A DNA stretch of 64,000 bases, taken from assembly GCA_947476475.1 (NCBI GenBank), contig CANJQT010000002.1, forward strand, positions 34,756 through 98,755, written 5' to 3'. The position numbers and the translations under genes are program-made. Below the pieces are notes generated by a model. That model was not told the origin of the DNA. It saw only the letters and a program-made list of their open reading frames with translations, and did no database searches. This DNA comes from Paracoccaceae bacterium (GTDB lineage: Bacteria > Pseudomonadota > Alphaproteobacteria > Rhodobacterales > Rhodobacteraceae). Below are positions 1 to 50,499 of this stretch, one piece after another. Numbering within the stretch: position 1 is the first letter of the stretch; each line of letters opens with the position of its first letter.

Positions 1-1154
1 AACCACAGGGATTTCGGGCCACCGCAGCGCCAACCGCTTCCGTTTCAGTGGTCACCCGCGATGGGGTATTGTCGCAGCCTCATGCCCGGGCGCTGCGGTT
101 CCTGTTGGCTTCGGCAGTGGCGGGCATGCGCCCCGACGATGTGTCGATCATCGACGGTCAAGGCAACCTGATCGGGGCCGACGATGCGAACGAATCTGGC
201 GCGGCGGATGATCGCGCGGCAGATTTGCGCGAAAAGGTGCTGCGCCTGCTTGAGGCGCGGGTCGGCCCCGGCAAGGCGGTTGTCGAGGTGGCGCGGGAAA
301 CCGTGACCGACAGCGAAACGGTGAGCGAACGCAAGATAGACCCGCAGGCGCGCGTTGCGATTTCGTCCGAGACCGAAGAGCAAACGACTTCGGCCAACGA
401 TCAAGGCGGAACCGGGGTGTCTGTGGCGTCGAACCTGCCCACGGGGGCGGCGGGCGGGTCGGGAAAGACGTCGCAAAAACAAGATAGCCGAACCCGCGAG
501 CGGATAAACTTTGAAGTGAGCGAAACCAGGCGCGATCTGGTGCGCGGCCCGGGCGCAACGCGGCGTTTGACGGTGGCTGTGCTTGTAGACGGGATTATGG
601 CCCCCCCTCTGGCAAGCGAAGGGGAAGCGCAGTGGCAGCCCCGTCCCGAAGACGAACTTACCGCGCTGCGCGATCTGGTGGCGGCGGCGGTCGGCTATGA
701 CGAGGCGCGCGGCGACGTTATCACCATCAGGACGCTGGCGTTCGAGCCTTTCAGTGCCAGCGGAACCGAGGCTGGCGCATCGCTCTTTCCGGCTTTTGCG
801 CTGGATGTCATGAGCCTTGTACAACTTGGCGTGTTGGCGATTGTGGCGCTGGTGTTGGGCCTCTTCGTTGTGCGCCCGATCCTGACGGCCCGGCCGGGCA
901 GGATGGTCGGGGCTCTGCCCGCGCCATCGCCGGTGATGGTGGCGCCTGCCCTATCGGGCGTGATCGAAGAGGGGGACTTCATGCCTCGAGATCTGTCGTT
1001 GCTGAATGGCGGCGCGCGGAATGCTATTACTGCCGCACAAGATGATCTGGCGGATCCGGTCGCCCGGCTGCGACGGCTGATTTCCGAGCGACAGGAAGAA
1101 ACCGTCGAGATCCTGAAAAGCTGGATGGATGACCCTGAAGCAGAGAAGGCATGA
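1..1154 (+). CDS. fliF: Flagellar M-ring protein FliF, C-terminal part (5' end outside window)
   Basis: ORF open from the window edge; FliF-like C-terminus (ERINFEVSETRRDLVRGPGATRRLTVAVLVDG, late TM segment) followed by other flagellar genes. Confidence 0.85.
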   Translation, partial: PQGFRATAAPTASVSVVTRDGVLSQPHARALRFLLASAVAGMRPDDVSIIDGQGNLIGADDANESGAADDRAADLREKVLRLLEARVGPGKAVVEVARETVTDSETVSERKIDPQARVAISSETEEQTTSANDQGGTGVSVASNLPTGAAGGSGKTSQKQDSRTRERINFEVSETRRDLVRGPGATRRLTVAVLVDGIMAPPLASEGEAQWQPRPEDELTALRDLVAAAVGYDEARGDVITIRTLAFEPFSASGTEAGASLFPAFALDVMSLVQLGVLAIVALVLGLFVVRPILTARPGRMVGALPAPSPVMVAPALSGVIEEGDFMPRDLSLLNGGARNAITAAQDDLADPVARLRRLISERQEETVEILKSWMDDPEAEKA

Positions 1155-1747
1155 TGGCGCGGCTTTTACAGCTTGAAGAGTTCGATGACGATGGAATGGG
1201 GTTGGGCGCAACCTCGCTATCGGCGGCTGAAAGCGAGGAGTTGCGGCTGGCTGCCTATGAGCAGGGTTATGCCGCCGGCTGGGAGGATGCCTTGACCGCG
1301 CAAAGCGCGGACATGGCGCGGCTACGCAGTGATCTGGGGCGCAGCCTGTCGGAAATGTCGGTCAGTTTTGCAGAGGCGCGCAGTCATGTTCTGGCATCGC
1401 TGGAACCTTTGCTGCGCGACATGGTGAACAAGGTGCTGCCGGTGACCGCACACAAGGCGCTTGGGCAGATGATTTTGCAGGAATTGCTACCGGCGGCGGA
1501 AGGACTGACCAATGTGCCGGTTCTGGTGCGCACCGCACCCGTGAATCGCGATCTGGTGGCTGAACTGCTTGCCCGTGAAACCCGTCTGCCCTTGCAGGTG
1601 GTGGCAGAGCCGACTTTGGGCGAGGGGCAGGCCTATTTGAAACTGGGCGCCACCGAGATGAACGTTGATCTGGATGGCGTCATTGACGCCATCGCAGCAG
1701 CGGTTGCCGCCTTTTTCCACATTGAGCGTCATGAGGCAGAGCGATGA
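1151..1747 (+). CDS. Flagellar assembly protein FliH-like
   Basis: ATGA-type overlap with fliF; FliH-like composition; position between fliF and fliN. Confidence 0.65.
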   Translation: MMARLLQLEEFDDDGMGLGATSLSAAESEELRLAAYEQGYAAGWEDALTAQSADMARLRSDLGRSLSEMSVSFAEARSHVLASLEPLLRDMVNKVLPVTAHKALGQMILQELLPAAEGLTNVPVLVRTAPVNRDLVAELLARETRLPLQVVAEPTLGEGQAYLKLGATEMNVDLDGVIDAIAAAVAAFFHIERHEAER

Positions 1748-2019
1748 CAGACGGGTTTTCGACCGACAAAAATCCTTTTACCCAGGTGCCGATCACCATC
1801 ACCATCTCGGTCGGTCGGGCGCACCCTGCGGTGCGTGATCTGTTGCGGCTAAAGCAGGATGCGATCCTGACGCTGGACAGCCGCGTCGACGACCCGGTCG
1901 AACTTTATGTTGGCGACAAGTTGATCGGGCGCGGGGCACTGACTGAACTTGACGGTGATCGTGCCGGACAACTCGCCGTGAGGCTGACAGAGGTGGCCGA
2001 TCTGAAAGGCGGTCTGTGA
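1744..2019 (+). CDS. fliN: Flagellar motor switch protein FliN
   Basis: 91 aa SpoA-like domain (ILTLDSRVDDPVELYVGDKLIGRGAL). Confidence 0.85.
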   Translation: MTDGFSTDKNPFTQVPITITISVGRAHPAVRDLLRLKQDAILTLDSRVDDPVELYVGDKLIGRGALTELDGDRAGQLAVRLTEVADLKGGL

Positions 2020-2766
2020 ATGACCCGCGCAGGCCTGCAGAATGCGGGCTTATGTCTGCTGCTGCTGATCCTACCGGTCCGCGCTTGCGCTCAGGACGGC
2101 GTGGCGTTTTTGAACGGACTGGCCGGTGGCAGCACGCTGACCGGCCAGTCTATGCTGATCATTGCCGCAGTCACAGTTCTGAGCCTGGCGCCCGGGCTTG
2201 CGGTGATGGTGACTTGTTTTCCCTTCATCGTCACGGTCCTGTCGATCCTGCGGCAGGCAATCGGCTTGCAGCAATTGCCGCCCAACATGTTGATCGTTTC
2301 GCTGTCGCTGTTCCTGACCTGGTTCATCATGGAACCCACCTTTCAGCAGGCCTGGACAACTGCAGGCAAGCCGCTTCTGGACGGAACCATCGACCTTCAA
2401 GCGGCGCTTGTGGCAGGGATCAAGCCCTTTCACGTCTTCATGTCCGCCCGGGTGGACCCTCAAACGCTTGCCTCTCTAGCCGCGCTGCGCCCGGAAACCG
2501 CCGCAATCACCAGCAACGCCGAGGCGCCCCTGTCGCTTCTGGTGCCTGCGTTCATGCTGTCGGAAGTGGCCCGCGCCTTCGAGATCGGATTTCTGGTCTT
2601 TCTGCCCTTTCTGATCATTGATCTGGTCGTCTCGGCACTGCTGATGTCGATGGGGATGATGATGGTGCCGCCTGCCATCGTGTCCTTGCCCTTCAAGCTG
2701 GCATTCTTCGTCGTCGCCGACGGATGGGCGCTGATTTCCGGCGCGCTGGTGCGCAGCTACTTCTGA
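2020..2766 (+). CDS. fliP: Flagellar type III export protein FliP
   Basis: FliP motifs (TCFPFIVTVLSILRQAIGLQQLPPNMLIVSLSLFLTWFIM; LSEVARAFEIGFLVFLPFLIIDLVVSALLMSMGMMMVPP). Confidence 0.95.
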   Translation: MTRAGLQNAGLCLLLLILPVRACAQDGVAFLNGLAGGSTLTGQSMLIIAAVTVLSLAPGLAVMVTCFPFIVTVLSILRQAIGLQQLPPNMLIVSLSLFLTWFIMEPTFQQAWTTAGKPLLDGTIDLQAALVAGIKPFHVFMSARVDPQTLASLAALRPETAAITSNAEAPLSLLVPAFMLSEVARAFEIGFLVFLPFLIIDLVVSALLMSMGMMMVPPAIVSLPFKLAFFVVADGWALISGALVRSYF

Positions 2767-3209
2767 AGGTGACGACGGTCTTCATGTGCAATCTGCGCAA
2801 TGCGCACCACCCGCAGGGCTTCGGTCAAGCTGGCTATGAGGATGCCAAAATTGATGAAACCGTTCGCGGCCGCCATGCCGCCCAGCAGCCTCCATTCGTG
2901 CGGCAACAGCACATCGCCGTAACCCAGCGTAGTGAAAGAGACGAGCGCGAAATAGACGCAAGGCTCCAGCCCGGAAAAAAGCTGCAAGGCCCAGAAGGTC
3001 AGTGCCCAAAGCCAGACGCCGAAGGTGACAACGCCAAGCACCCAGACCGCCGCCGCGCACAACAGTAAAAGGAGTTTCGGCGCGTGTGGCGGACGGGCGA
3101 GCCAGTCGTGATGACGCCGCAGCAATGTTTCGACCCACCAAAGGCTGATCCCCGCCACGGCAATTGTAATCAGCATCAGGGCTGAGCCCAAGGCGATCTG
3201 CAAGACCAT
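2757..3209 (-). CDS. Two-TM potassium/ion channel family protein
   Basis: Pore-like motif [18 protein letters not shown] between hydrophobic helices. Confidence 0.8.
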
Positions 3210-3315
3210 GGCGTGTTTCCTTTTCTGCTGCCCGATAAACTTATGTACCGAACACGGCGCTGCAAAGGGCCAGTGTCTGGACTTGAGGGTGTTGGTGCCC
3301 TATCTCAGCCGCATC

Positions 3316-3786
3316 ATGGTGCAAAAGTCTGACCCCAATTCGAAACTTATCGCTGAGAACCGCCGCGCGCGGTTCGATTATTTTATCGAAAGTGACCTTG
3401 AAGCCGGGATCATGCTGACCGGATCAGAGGTGAAGTCCTTGCGTACCGGCCAGTCTAACATCGCGGAAAGCTACGCATCGGTGGAGAATGGCGAGCTTTG
3501 GCTGATCAACAGCTATATTGCTGCCTACAAGCAGGCCGGGATTTTTGGCCACGAGGAGCGCCGCCGCCGGAAGCTTTTGGTGTCGAAGAAGGAATTGTCG
3601 CGCTTGTGGCAAGCCATCGGGCGTGAGGGCATGACATTGGTGCCCCTGGCCATGTATTTCAACGACCGCGGCCGGGTGAAGCTCAAGATCGGCATTGCCA
3701 AAGGCAAGAAGGCTGCGGACAAGCGAGAGACTGAAGCTAAGCGCGATTGGGGCCGCCAGAAGCAGCGGTTGCTTAAGCAAGGCTGA
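3316..3786 (+). CDS. smpB: SsrA-binding protein SmpB
   Basis: SmpB sequence ([11 protein letters not shown]...[24 protein letters not shown]...[13 protein letters not shown]); start moved to the internal ATG at 3316. Confidence 0.95.
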
Positions 3787-3946
3787 GCAGAGCTCCGTCA
3801 ATTTGACGGTGCAGGCGACATCAAATCCGCCTTGGCCCGGTGAAAGACCTGCATGGGTATGCCGCGAGCGTGCTCACCTGACGAAGTCGGGCTTGCTTCG
3901 ACCCACTGCTCCCGGCTAATCCAGAAGCGCACAAGGAGAGGCAGAT

Positions 3947-4795
3947 ATGGCAGACGATCCCAAAACCGTTGTTTCCACCGACTGGCTTGGGGCACACCTG
4001 AAGGATCCCGATCTGCGGATCCTGGATGCAAGCTGGTATCTGCCCGACGCTGGCCGCGATGCGAAGGCCGAATATCAGGCCGCCCATATTCCCGGCGCGC
4101 GCTTCTTCGACATCGACGAAATTTCCGACAAAAGGTCGGGCCTGCCGCACATGGCCCCACCACCCGAGATGTTCATCAGCCGCATGCGGGCGATGGGGGT
4201 AGGCGATGGCCATCAGGTCGTTGTTTATGATGGATCGGGTCTGTTTTCAGCAGCGCGTGTCTGGTGGACATTCCGGTTGATGGGCAAGGTCGATGTCGCG
4301 GTTCTGGACGGCGGATTTCCGAAGTGGCAAGCCGAAGGCCGCCCAACTGAAGACATGCCCCCCATGGTGCGCGACCGCCATATCACCGTTCAGCGCCAGG
4401 CTCATCTGGTCCGGGATGTTACCCAGGTGGCTGCTGCCGCCAAACTGGGCGATCACGCGATCATCGATGCCCGCGCCCCGGGCCGGTTCCGGGGCGAAGA
4501 GCCAGAGCCGCGCCCCGGCCTGCGCGGGGGTCATATCCCCGGGTCCATCAACGTGCCCTTCAAGACGCTTCTGAACCCCGACAATACGATGAAAGACCCC
4601 GGGACACTGCGGGCGGTTTTCATGGCGGCCGGGGTTGATCTGAAGAAACCGGCGATCACCTCTTGCGGCTCGGGCATCACGGCCGCGGTTCTAAGTCTGG
4701 CACTGGAACGGATCGGCAAGCGGGATCATTCGCTGTACGACGGGTCTTGGGCCGAATGGGGCATGTATGGCGATCTGAAGGTTGTCAAAGGCTGA
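3947..4795 (+). CDS. sseA: 3-mercaptopyruvate/thiosulfate sulfurtransferase
   Basis: Two rhodanese domains, active-site loop SCGSGITA. Confidence 0.9.
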   Translation: MADDPKTVVSTDWLGAHLKDPDLRILDASWYLPDAGRDAKAEYQAAHIPGARFFDIDEISDKRSGLPHMAPPPEMFISRMRAMGVGDGHQVVVYDGSGLFSAARVWWTFRLMGKVDVAVLDGGFPKWQAEGRPTEDMPPMVRDRHITVQRQAHLVRDVTQVAAAAKLGDHAIIDARAPGRFRGEEPEPRPGLRGGHIPGSINVPFKTLLNPDNTMKDPGTLRAVFMAAGVDLKKPAITSCGSGITAAVLSLALERIGKRDHSLYDGSWAEWGMYGDLKVVKG

Positions 4796-4806
4796 AAGGA
4801 AGATCC

Positions 4807-5988
4807 ATGCTGAACGCTTTGAAACCACAGCCAGCCGACAAGATCCTGCAACTGATAGGCCAGTTCCGCGCCGATCCGCGGAATGACAAGATCGACCTCG
4901 GCGTTGGGGTTTACAAAGACGCAACCGGGCTGACACCTGTGATGCGCGCGGTGAAGGCGGCCGAATACCGACTGTGGCAAAGCCAGATGACCAAGTCCTA
5001 CACTGGTCTTGCGGGAGAACCAGAATTCAACTCTGCGATGGCTGCGATGATCCTTGGGCCGTCACCCGACAACGGCCGCATCGCATCGGTGGCTACGCCG
5101 GGCGGGACCGGGGCCATCCGGCAGGCGTTCGAGTTGATCCGCATGGCGGCCCCCGATGCCACGGTTTGGGTGTCTGACCCGACCTGGCCCAACCACACGT
5201 CGATCCTGAATTATCTGGGCATGAAGCAGCGCACTTACCGCTATTTCGACACTGAAAGCCGTGGCGTGGATTTTGCCGGGCTCATAAGCGACCTGGCCGG
5301 GGCAAAAGCAGGCGATGTGGTCTTGTTGCACGGCTGTTGCCACAATCCGACAGGGGCCAACCTGACCTTGCCTGAATGGGACGAAGTCGCCGCCCTGCTG
5401 GAAAAGACAGGGGCAATACCGCTGATCGACCTTGCCTACCAAGGCTTCGGCGATGGGCTGGAGGAGGATGCAGGGGGCACACGTCTGATTGTGGCGCGTC
5501 TTCCCGAAGTGCTGATTGCCGCATCTTGCAGCAAGAATTTTGGGATTTACCGCGAACGGACTGGGGTGTTGATGACCCTGTCCGACCCGTCGCTGCGAGA
5601 GGTGTCGCAGGCCAACCTCGCGTTTCTGAACCGTCAGAACTATTCCTTCCCGCCCGATCATGGCGCGCGGGTCGTTACAACAATCCTGATGGATGAGGCG
5701 CTTAAAGCTGACTGGAAGGCCGAACTGGAAGCGATCCGCAATGGTATGCTGTCCTTGCGCGCCCAATTGGCGCAGGAGTTGCGCAACCTGTCGGGATCAG
5801 ACCGCTTTGGTTTCATCGCCCAGCATCGCGGCATGTTTTCGCGCCTGGGGGCCACGCCGGAGCAGGTGGAACGGCTGCGGGCGGAACATGGGATCTATAT
5901 GGTGGGCGATAGCCGCCTGAACATCGCCGGGCTGAATGTGAAAACCGTGCCAATCCTGGCACGGGCCATTCTGGCGGTCGGGATCTGA
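4807..5988 (+). CDS. Aromatic/aspartate aminotransferase (class I)
   Basis: PLP motifs (HGCCHNPTGANL; SCSKNFGIYRERTGVL); ATG at 4807 after the sseA stop. Confidence 0.9.
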   Translation: MLNALKPQPADKILQLIGQFRADPRNDKIDLGVGVYKDATGLTPVMRAVKAAEYRLWQSQMTKSYTGLAGEPEFNSAMAAMILGPSPDNGRIASVATPGGTGAIRQAFELIRMAAPDATVWVSDPTWPNHTSILNYLGMKQRTYRYFDTESRGVDFAGLISDLAGAKAGDVVLLHGCCHNPTGANLTLPEWDEVAALLEKTGAIPLIDLAYQGFGDGLEEDAGGTRLIVARLPEVLIAASCSKNFGIYRERTGVLMTLSDPSLREVSQANLAFLNRQNYSFPPDHGARVVTTILMDEALKADWKAELEAIRNGMLSLRAQLAQELRNLSGSDRFGFIAQHRGMFSRLGATPEQVERLRAEHGIYMVGDSRLNIAGLNVKTVPILARAILAVGI

Positions 5989-5994
5989 AACAGG

Positions 5995-6016
5995 GGGCGG
6001 GGCCGAAGCCCCGCCC
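5995..6016. terminator. Bidirectional intrinsic-type hairpin between convergent genes
   Basis: GGGCGGGGC-CGAA-GCCCCGCCC, perfect 9-bp stem. Confidence 0.7.
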
Positions 6017-6022
6017 TTTGAG

Positions 6023-7330
6023 CTATCCGTGATAGGCACTTTCGCCATGCGCGGTTTGGTCAAGACCCTGACGTTCGCTGTCGGCATCGACGCGCAGGCC
6101 GATGGTTGCGTCGATCAGCTTGAACAGGGCAAACGACACGATGCCCGTCCAGATCGCCGTGATCGCCGCTGCCTGAAACTGCACCCAGACCTGCGCCCCA
6201 ATCGCATAGCCTTCGCCCTTCACGCCGCCAAGGCTGGCTGCTGAAAACACGCCGGTCAGCAATGCGCCGACAATGCCGCCCACCCCGTGAATACCGAAGA
6301 CGTCAAGGCTGTCGTCGTAGCGGAAGATATTCTTCACCCGCGTCACGAAAATATAGCAGACTGCGGCCGCGATCATTGCCAGAACCATCGCACCGACCGG
6401 CCCTACGGTGCCACAGGCGGGCGTCACCGCAACCAACCCCGCCACCATGCCTGACGCAGCCCCCAGCATCGAGGCTTTGCCACGCTCTGCTGCCTCGATC
6501 AGCGACCAGACAAGGGTGGCAGCCGCGGTGGCAACGAACGTGTTGATCATCGCCAGAGTGGCGGCACCATTCGCTTCGAGGTTTGAGCCAACATTAAAGC
6601 CGAACCAGCCAACCCACAGCATCGAAGCGCCGATCATCGTCATCACCATTGAATGGGGCGCCATGTTTTCACGACCAAAGCCGATGCGCGGGCCAATGAC
6701 CAGGCAGCCGACCAGTGCCGCGATACCGGCGTTGATATGCACGACTGTGCCACCAGCAAAATCTATGGCACCCAACTTGAAGATCAGCCCAGACACATCC
6801 CAGACCATGTGCGCCACTGGAAAATAGGCCAACGTGACCCAGAGTGCCGAAAACAACAGCACCGCGCCGAATTTGACCCGCTCGGCAAAGGCCCCGATGA
6901 TCAGCGCGGGGGTGATGGCCGCGAATGTCATCTGAAAGACGATGAACAGATATTCCGGGATCACATAGCCGGCGCTGAACGTGGCTGACAGGCTATCTGG
7001 CGTCACGCCCTTCAAGAACAGCTTGGCTGTGCCGCCCCAAAACAGGCCGGTCCCGCCGCCGAAGGTGACAGAATAGCCATAGACGACCCAGATCACCATC
7101 ACCAGGCAGGCGATCAGCGTCGTTTGCATCAGGATTGAGAGCATGTTTTTCGTGCGCACCAGACCGCCGTAGAAAAGGGCGAGGCCCGGCAAAGTCATGA
7201 ACAACACCAGCACCGTGGCGATCATCATGAAGGACACATCGCCCTTGTCCATTACTGGCGCGACGTCTTGTCCAAAGGCGGGGCCGGCTGCGAACAGACC
7301 CAGCGCGGCAAGGGGGGATTTCTGCATCAT
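6023..7330 (-). CDS. amtB: Ammonium transporter AmtB
   Basis: Amt family sequence; signal-peptide-like start MMQKSPLAALGLFAAGPAFGQ; adjacent PII gene. Confidence 0.95.
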   Translation of the reverse strand: MMQKSPLAALGLFAAGPAFGQDVAPVMDKGDVSFMMIATVLVLFMTLPGLALFYGGLVRTKNMLSILMQTTLIACLVMVIWVVYGYSVTFGGGTGLFWGGTAKLFLKGVTPDSLSATFSAGYVIPEYLFIVFQMTFAAITPALIIGAFAERVKFGAVLLFSALWVTLAYFPVAHMVWDVSGLIFKLGAIDFAGGTVVHINAGIAALVGCLVIGPRIGFGRENMAPHSMVMTMIGASMLWVGWFGFNVGSNLEANGAATLAMINTFVATAAATLVWSLIEAAERGKASMLGAASGMVAGLVAVTPACGTVGPVGAMVLAMIAAAVCYIFVTRVKNIFRYDDSLDVFGIHGVGGIVGALLTGVFSAASLGGVKGEGYAIGAQVWVQFQAAAITAIWTGIVSFALFKLIDATIGLRVDADSERQGLDQTAHGESAYHG

Positions 7331-47104: not shown

Positions 47105-48472
47105 TCATTCTGCTGCTTCACGGGTCATCAGCCAAGTCGGCACCACTTCGCGCGACAGAACGTCCGCCACTGTCTCGCGCCGCCGCACAACTGTAGAGCG
47201 GCCATTGGACACCATCACAGTGGCAGAGCGCGGGATGACATTAGACTGGCAGGCAAAGCTCTCATTATAGGCTCCCATGTCCAGGAAGGCTAAAGTGTCG
47301 CCGATCTTCAACGGCGGCAGTTCGCGCGCTTTGGCCAGAATGTCGCCTGCATTACAGGTCTGACCGCAGACATCGACGACCTCTGCACCCTTGCGCTCTA
47401 CATCATTGGCAACCACAATATGGTGGACCGAGCAGCGCGGATCGAACGGGTCGCGCATTTCGTTTGAGTTGCCATCCACATAGACCCAAGTCTTGTTGGC
47501 CAGCGTATGGTCTTCCTTGCGGGCATTAACCTGCACCACCCATAGGCCAGCGCTTTCCCAGCAATAACGCCCCGGCTCCAGCATCAAGACCGGCACCGGC
47601 ATGCCATGCTTGGCGCAGGTTTCGGTAATTGCCTTGCTGATCACGCGGCCATATTCCTCGACCGAGGGGGGCGCATCGGCGCCGTAGCGTTCCGACACGA
47701 AGCCGCCACCAATGTTCAGGTAGGCGGGCGCCCAGCCGGTCTGCGCCTTGATGTCGCCGAGGATTTCAACCAGTTCCTCGGTTTCCTCGCGGTAGAATCC
47801 AGCGCGGCGCGGGATGCCGCCGTGGTAATGGCAACCTTCCAGCGAGACATTCTTCATGCCTTGGGCGATCTTGACCGCTTCGGCATAGGCGTCAGGCGCC
47901 AAGCCAAACTTGAAAGTGCGTTCCCAGTAACTGGGGCTGATGCCTTCTGGATAGCGGGCATCGACATACTTCACCTCTGCCAGCGACCGCAGCGGCAGGC
48001 GGATGCGCAGGGAAATCCGCGCGACCTTGCCCATTTGGGTGGCCACTTCGCCGACAAGTCTCAACTCGTCAGGATTGTCGACCTGGTTCAACACCCCCAT
48101 GTCGATGGCAGCTTCGATGGTTTCGCGCGATTTGTTGGCGCCGTTCATGACGATCTTGCGCGGGTCGGACCCGGCCATCATCGCCACAGTTAGCTCGCCC
48201 AGACCAAAGGCATCGCCACCGCCGCCCTCTTCCACGATCACGCGGCGTGCGGCCAGGCCCCAGTTACCCTTCATGCCCGCGCAGACGATCACCTCGGCCG
48301 GATAGACATCGGCAAAGGCGCGGTGGATGCGGCGGAAGTTCTGACGGATGGTATTTTCCGATAACACGAACAGCGGAGTGCCATATTGTGCCGCCAGGTC
48401 CGGGACCTTGATCCCTTCGAATGCCAGCTGGTTGTCGGAACCGGAGTCTAGATAGTTCCCGAATTTTGTCAT
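47105..48472 (-). CDS. Fold-type III PLP-dependent decarboxylase (diaminopimelate/ornithine decarboxylase family)
   Basis: CAGMKGNWGLAARR (PLP Lys region), CHYHGGIPR, GGGF, EPGRYCWESAG, CGQTCNAGDILA. Confidence 0.88.
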   Translation of the reverse strand: MTKFGNYLDSGSDNQLAFEGIKVPDLAAQYGTPLFVLSENTIRQNFRRIHRAFADVYPAEVIVCAGMKGNWGLAARRVIVEEGGGGDAFGLGELTVAMMAGSDPRKIVMNGANKSRETIEAAIDMGVLNQVDNPDELRLVGEVATQMGKVARISLRIRLPLRSLAEVKYVDARYPEGISPSYWERTFKFGLAPDAYAEAVKIAQGMKNVSLEGCHYHGGIPRRAGFYREETEELVEILGDIKAQTGWAPAYLNIGGGFVSERYGADAPPSVEEYGRVISKAITETCAKHGMPVPVLMLEPGRYCWESAGLWVVQVNARKEDHTLANKTWVYVDGNSNEMRDPFDPRCSVHHIVVANDVERKGAEVVDVCGQTCNAGDILAKARELPPLKIGDTLAFLDMGAYNESFACQSNVIPRSATVMVSNGRSTVVRRRETVADVLSREVVPTWLMTREAAE

Positions 48473-48524
48473 AGCGATCGCCTCCACTGCAGCTTGCCTT
48501 TTTAGTCTGCAACGGGGCGCATGT

Positions 48525-48562
48525 GTGGTCAATATTAATTATTAATAATTATTATTGACCAC
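48525..48562. repeat. 38-bp near-perfect palindrome (putative operator)
   Basis: GTGGTCAATATTAATTATT|AATAATTATTATTGACCAC; 18 of 19 pairs match. Confidence 0.85.
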
Positions 48563-49124
48563 GTCGATCCGAAACCCGGCGGCGAGTGCAGGATACCATG
48601 ATGTCAGGCTCCGAACCGATTACGCGCAGCCAGTGCGGCATCAGTGCGCTGAAGTAATAGGGCTCACCCCGCTCCATAATCCGCCGCTCCTCCCCAACTG
48701 TCACTTCGATCCGGCCAGAGATCAGAAAACCTGATTCCCGTGCCTCCTCGCGCAACTGCCTCATCCCCGAATCGGCACCCGGCTTGAAAAGTTCGTATTG
48801 AAAGATCATCAGTCCATCGGTCACGCCGCCGCACACCTGCCAAAAGGCTATCTTGCCCCTGCTCACGCGCTTTAGAGCCTCGACCCGACAGAACGCCTTC
48901 TGGGGCGAGGTACCGGGGAGTTGCCAGGACTCGGCCATGCTCAGCCGAAAGGCGCTCAGAAGCTTCAACAGCTACGAAATTAATGGGTTCAACCGGTTCT
49001 GCTCGATCAGCGCGATGGTGGCATTGCTGACGCCCCTCATCTTGCTCAGTTTGCGTTGCGACAGCCCGAACTTCGCGCGCACCGCACTCAGCCTCGGGCC
49101 GATGCGCCCCTCTCGGGAGTCGAG
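48552..49124 (-). pseudogene. XRE-family regulator with cupin domain, interrupted by an in-frame TAG
   Basis: HTH part IGPRLSAVRAKFGLSQRKLSKMRGVSNATIALIEQNRLNPLIS*, same frame continues LLKLLSAFRLSMAES...cupin; stop at 48972-48974; 5' limit uncertain. Confidence 0.8.
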
Positions 49125-50437
49125 GTGATGACCCGCACTGGAGCAATTCTCAATTCCAACGGTCGCTTGACCTTTCCCCGCGCATTGATCGAGGACACCA
49201 TTGCTAAGGCTGGCCGACGCCTTGTGCTGCATGGTCAGGATCCCAAACACGATATGGCACCTTGGACGATAAGGTCTATTTTAGCAACGCCCCGCTCTCG
49301 ACATGGTTGATGCCCGCTCAGGCGCATACCGCGATCGACGGTGAAGGATCTTTTTGACTGTGCACGCGTCTTGGACGCGATGAGAAATGTGTATTTTTTC
49401 CAACGAACAGTGGTCTGCTGCGACCTAACCAATCCGTTCGAGATGGACTTCAACACCTGCTATGCGTCGACCTTGGGCACCAGCACGCATCTGGGCACCA
49501 GCAGGACTGATCCTGCCTAAATGATGACCTCAATCAGGCTTCTGCACGAAGTATCAGGGGGTGAGGACAAATGGCGCGTCCAGCCTTTCGTCAGCCAACC
49601 CAACTGCTTCGTTGCGCCTCCGTTGCGCTTTGCCGCCGAGGCCTGCCTGTGTCTTGAGGTCGCTGTGCGCGAAGGCATGCCGGTGTTTCTGGTGCCAGCA
49701 GTCAGGCCGGAGGCACATCTCTTGCAGCACTTGCGGCTGCACTCGCGCTCGAAGAGGCTGAATGTCTGGCCGAAATGTTCTATGCCAACGCTATCAAGGC
49801 CGGCACGCCTACTATCTTTGGCACCTATTGCTTTGTCTCCGACCTGCGCACCGGTGCGATGTCTGGCGGCAGCCCCGAACAAGCGCTGCTGTCAGCCGCT
49901 TCGGCCCAGTTGGAGCAGTTCTATGAACTGAACTGTGGCACCGACTTGGGAATGACCGATTCCAAGATCTTCGACGAGCAATCTGGCTACGAAAAAGCCC
50001 ATAAACAAGTCCTTGTCGGCAATGCTGAGGCCAGTCAGACATACAAAGCTGCTGGGCTGCAGCCAAAACAGATCGTGATCGACAATGAAATCATCGGCTC
50101 TACGCAACGCACCATCTGCGGCATCGAGGTGATGCCCGACAGCCTGTCTTTCGAAACCATACGAGAGGTCTGCATTGGCGGCCCGGGGCATTTCTTGGGC
50201 TCGGAGCAAACATTTCAGCTGATGCGCAAGGAAAATATCTCTCCTGACATCGGAGACCGCCGGAAGGTAAAGGACTTGAACCAGCGTGGTCGGCTCTCCA
50301 TCATCGAGCATGCCGAAACGTGTGTGAAGCAAATCCTGACCGGTCACTTACCAGCCCAAATCTATCTAAGTTTTGATGATGACGTGCGCCGCCACAATCC
50401 TGTGCGCCTGCCTGCGGCCCAGACACGGGCGGTTTGA
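49116..50437 (+). pseudogene. MttB (trimethylamine:corrinoid methyltransferase) family remnant
   Basis: HGQDPKHDM, DLFDCARVLDAM, FVSDLRTGAMSGGSPEQALL, SGYEKAH, IEV...IREVCIGGPGHFLG spread over frames with a stop (TAA near 49518) and a 1-nt deletion near 49700. Confidence 0.85.
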
Positions 50438-50499
50438 TCCGCTGCGCCCTTGACGGGCAAGGACCGGGCGCTATAGCGTCTGGTCCTCGGTTTACCCGG

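Follow-up and report, generated by a model that had tools for sequence, protein, structure and literature searches.

In Pseudomonas, XRE-cupin regulators act as local inhibitors, binding as dimers to palindromes at metabolic promoters (PMC7901475; PMC10965056). PsdR, one of these regulators, has two sites around its own gene with the pattern TTAAG-N5-CTTAA (PMC7901475). Here we describe a 38-bp palindrome in a 64,000-nucleotide stretch of DNA from a Paracoccaceae bacterium, referred to below as the window. Like the operators of PsdR, PauR and ErfA in Pseudomonas (PMC7901475, PMC10965056), it is palindromic, adjoins an XRE-cupin gene and lies at the putative promoter of a metabolic target. The sites known from Pseudomonas, however, are short and suited to a dimer (PsdR: 15 bp), whereas in the window an A/T centre separates half-sites spaced by 28 bp, and the window regulator, unlike those of Pseudomonas, is broken. 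Sequence comparisons point, with a probability of about 0.55, to an extended and now orphaned operator of the XRE-cupin type that overlaps the -35 region of the adjacent decarboxylase gene.

Results

The palindrome occupies positions 48525-48562 and consists of two halves of 19 nucleotides (GTGGTCAATATTAATTATT|AATAATTATTATTGACCAC) that pair at 18 of 19 positions. The decarboxylase ATG at 48472 follows 52 bp downstream. The pairing, the coordinates and this distance had all been given in the initial annotation and were confirmed on the sequence. No other 19+19 dyad in the window exceeded 15 of 19 pairs, the maximum in order-5 Markov simulations of the window was 16 of 19, and the palindrome was the strongest short inverted repeat found there. 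The highest A/T content among all 28-mers of the window also falls within it. When the inner 28 nucleotides were shuffled, at least 13 of 14 pairs were reached at a P of about 2e-4; the symmetry is thus not accounted for by A/T richness alone. At its centre is an all-A/T symmetrical spacer of 18 bp (48535-48552).

The minus-strand order is XRE-cupin pseudogene, palindrome, decarboxylase and two DMGDH-like genes. The decarboxylase (47105-48472, minus strand) is a PLP enzyme of the Orn/DAP/Arg type (Pfam PF02784/PF00278); its ATG at 48472 is preceded by GGAGG, and this start agrees with that of its closest relative, found in a Rhodobacteraceae MAG (L031). A candidate decarboxylase promoter (48504-48532, minus strand) was picked out by eye and is missing from the consensus-scan list. 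Its putative -35 box, TTGACC (48532-48527), lies inside a palindrome arm and is separated by a 17-bp spacer from a possible -10 box, CAGACT (48509-48504), which is weak (3/6) and was likewise placed by eye. Past the XRE-cupin pseudogene, the plus strand carries an mttB-like methyltransferase pseudogene (49128-50437), which is 5'-truncated and frame-broken and has an intact relative in L031, followed by a GntR/FCD regulator, a LysR regulator and an amidase. A second palindrome of 28 bp, AGGACCGGGCGCTATAGCGTCTGGTCCT, was observed at window positions 50460-50487, 12 bp upstream of the likely GntR/FCD ATG (50500), and is a candidate operator of that regulator.

The XRE-cupin regulator pseudogene (48571-49127, minus strand) retains a helix-turn-helix and a Cupin_2 domain (Cupin_2 E 2.3e-10; HTH_3 E 2.4e-4, just short of the curated cut-off), and XRE-cupin relatives align with it across the whole protein. 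Its DNA-reading helix, SNATIALIEQNR, is near those of relatives (SNATISLIEQNR in L202, SNASVSLIEQNR in L191). The 5' end is fused to the truncated mttB and the 3' end is out of frame. Because the upstream end runs into the antisense mttB, the start and promoter of the gene have been lost. The reading frame runs ...GPRLSAVRAKFGLSQRKLSKMRGVSNATIALIEQNRLNPLIS*LLKLLSAF..., with a lone in-frame TAG at 48972-48974. A frameshift was rejected as the chief lesion, as one frame holds both the helix-turn-helix and the cupin domain with this single TAG. With the in-frame TAG, the lost start and the shifted 3' end, an intact cognate regulator was not found.

Relatives end in SACTPPSF or TPPTF followed by a stop. 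The window counterpart of this C-terminal signature is PPGF, which stands in the next frame and ends at 48571. The palindrome starts 8 bp beyond this conserved coding part and is therefore essentially intergenic. The overlap with the XRE-cupin stop recorded in the initial annotation is present, but as a by-product of pseudogene decay, the 3' end having slipped out of frame. The place of the palindrome directly after a coding region is also that of an intrinsic (rho-independent) terminator, and the element might act as RNA, forming a hairpin between the XRE-cupin gene and the decarboxylase gene that marks a transcription end or stabilises the mRNA. The predicted RNA fold (-15.7 kcal/mol, z -6.7) is in keeping with this; the z-score adds nothing, however, because RNA copied from any perfect DNA dyad would fold. 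Unlike an intrinsic terminator, the element has an inner stem of A/T only, all A-U near the loop, and neither strand carries a T-tract. We consider an RNA element quite improbable, and an intrinsic terminator in particular was ruled out by the missing T-tract and the empty terminator scan.

The 38-mer occurs once in the source genome. It was absent from 396 other genomes of the family with up to three mismatches allowed, and from viral contigs; plasmids gave no match to a 161-bp query. A looser pattern, TGGTCAAT-N10-30-ATTGACCA, gave too many unrelated matches in viral contigs to be meaningful. A repeated or mobile element was thus ruled out, the sequence being single-copy in genome and family and missing from viral contigs and plasmids. 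The decarboxylase itself is rare. Among 397 genomes of the family no strong match other than that in L031 (87%) was seen, the only further orthologue found was one at 56% in L032, and a class-wide sample contained just one relative at 37%. The conservation upstream of orthologous decarboxylases that the initial annotation had proposed as a check did not hold, neither in the 396 other family genomes nor before the L031 gene, the one close relative on which the orthologue comparison rests. No comparable palindrome was seen with more distant decarboxylases (about 30-37%), and neither L031 nor L032 is informative for the operator.

In L031 an apparently intact operon was observed at positions 1-6870, with the order cupin, mttB-like gene, amidase, decarboxylase and DMGDH-like gene. 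XRE-cupin is absent from it, and the gap of 3 bp between amidase and decarboxylase leaves no room for the palindrome. As this operon is apparently intact and differently arranged, the window represents a rearranged and partly decayed form. The L031 operon seems to encode the catabolism of a methylated amine, and the window looks like its broken, rearranged version. In such a region, with mttB truncated and XRE-cupin broken, a palindrome that is unique and unconserved could be a non-functional inverted duplication left by the rearrangement. We regard this origin as very improbable: no flanking direct repeat was seen by eye, there is no second copy, the near-perfect symmetry persists, and the arms match, in register, the half-site of the neighbouring regulator's relatives, as described below.

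XRE-cupin relatives were gathered from the family and the class (Alphaproteobacteria). A 20-bp dyad, RTGTTYAATA|TATTRAACAY, was found to precede their own genes (L043-L061, L185-L207). It was first noticed in L055-L060 and then in the closer subfamily, for example as CTGTTCAATATATTGAACAG in L191. A symmetrical matrix was fitted to 32 upstream regions, with the window left out, and 30 of the 32, themselves the sequences used for the fit, exceeded the 95th percentile obtained with shuffled sequence. In 7 cases a further half-site, oriented in the same way, lay 9 bp outside the dyad, compared to 1.16 expected; in 200 shuffles at most 5 were reached at any distance. In L193 the canonical core is flanked by weak outer half-sites at the 9-bp pitch, and the arms in L196 are GTGGTTA and TAACCAC. 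None of the relatives had outer arms without a core. No paper came up in a literature search with three core strings from the consensus. A PuuR-like XRE-cupin subfamily (L055, L056, L057, L060 and L061; recognition helix PHGQISMIE) was observed to have a related yet distinct upstream dyad, TTGCTCAATATATTGAGCAA.

Scored against this motif, the palindrome arms ranked high. The outer half-site GTGGTCAATA at 48525-48534 on the plus strand scores 10.46 bits (rank 7 of 127,982) and departs from RTGTTYAATA only once, by a T to G mismatch at motif position 4 that costs 1.8 bits. The same half-site lies on the minus strand at 48553-48562 (TATTGACCAC on the plus strand; 10.46 bits). Both arms belong to the top 7 of the 127,982 half-site positions, lie exactly in register with the palindrome edges, and form the best facing half-site pair in the window, a register and spacing that were noticed after the fact. 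In a composition control, random palindromes of the same letters reached the arm score in about 2% of cases (p about 0.02). The best full 20-mer matrix match in the window is ATGGTCAGGATCCCAAACAC at 49231-49250 (16.9 bits); it may be a chance match, since these positions encode the conserved HGQDP in the mttB pseudogene.

The half-sites of the palindrome are 28 bp apart, 18 bp wider than in the abutting 20-bp dyad, and abutting half-sites were not found in it. Where the 9-bp pitch would place the inner half-sites (48534 forward and 48544 reverse), the motif was not recognisable, with scores of -9.6 and -13.6 bits. The palindrome is therefore no canonical XRE-cupin operator and would act, if at all, as a split one. 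With a length of 38 bp (20+9+9) it corresponds to the outer pair in an operator of four half-sites, but the core is absent. The element resembles the predicted autoregulatory dyads of the alphaproteobacterial relatives in its half-site and in the 38-bp outer span given by the 9-bp pitch (L193). The relatives, however, have retained the 20-bp central pair that is missing from the window element, and their dyads lie before the XRE-cupin gene whereas the window element lies after it.

Symmetry, an A/T-rich centre and a promoter-proximal place would suit any operator, and the GntR/FCD and LysR genes nearby (50.5-52.2 kb) are intact while XRE-cupin is broken. The palindrome could accordingly serve another dimeric or tetrameric regulator, either one of these two or one encoded elsewhere. 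We judge this rather unlikely, given that the arms fit the XRE-cupin half-site, that a different palindrome (50460-50487) stands just upstream of the GntR gene, and that neither the 38-mer nor its TGGTC-A/T26-GACCA architecture (up to three mismatches) has a second copy in the genome. A GntR dimer site was ruled out, as the arms are too widely spaced and a separate palindrome stands before the GntR gene.

Discussion

Under our preferred reading, an XRE-cupin-type operator, the outer arms GTGGTCAATA would be half-sites contacted by the helix-turn-helix of the XRE-cupin protein encoded alongside. At 28 bp apart, they would take the outer positions of a four-half-site operator, in which a 20-bp dyad is flanked on either side by a further half-site, shifted outward by 9 bp. 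A pair of XRE-cupin dimers, or a single tetramer, might then bind symmetrically across the A/T-rich centre. The bound regulator would cover the putative -35 region (TTGACC) of the decarboxylase promoter, and the decarboxylase and the two DMGDH-like genes would be repressed until a ligand binds the cupin domain. By analogy, an intact ancestor of the regulator may have bound the palindrome and, when no inducer was present, silenced the decarboxylase-DMGDH genes. The initial annotation had favoured an operator of a dimeric or tetrameric regulator over a terminator. The first part is largely supported by the absence of a T-tract, the match of the arms to the XRE-cupin half-site and a length suited to a multi-half-site operator, and the guess about the regulator fits an extended operator.

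Because the regulator is broken, and no close XRE-cupin paralogue and no canonical XRE-cupin operator were found elsewhere in the source genome, the site has probably been orphaned and the operon is probably free of XRE-cupin control. The missing 20-bp core, a p of only about 0.02, the lack of conservation and the lack of a canonical operator elsewhere in the genome count against the reading as a whole. That XRE-cupin regulators of Alphaproteobacteria use 9-bp-phased extended operators, of which the outer pair alone can serve over an A/T-only centre, as a split operator for two dimers or a tetramer, is a wider proposal that we hold to be unlikely.

The palindrome, most likely a binding site for a local XRE-cupin repressor, resembles a switch left orphaned, not a new kind of element. 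By sequence comparison, an unexplained palindrome can now be tied to a specific class of local metabolic repressors. The operator motif and its 9-bp pitch in the relatives are a more useful product than the window site: for XRE-cupin regulators throughout the Alphaproteobacteria they provide an operator consensus that can be tested and whose extension, phased by 9 bp, is unusual. At the window site, an operator has likely outlived its repressor.
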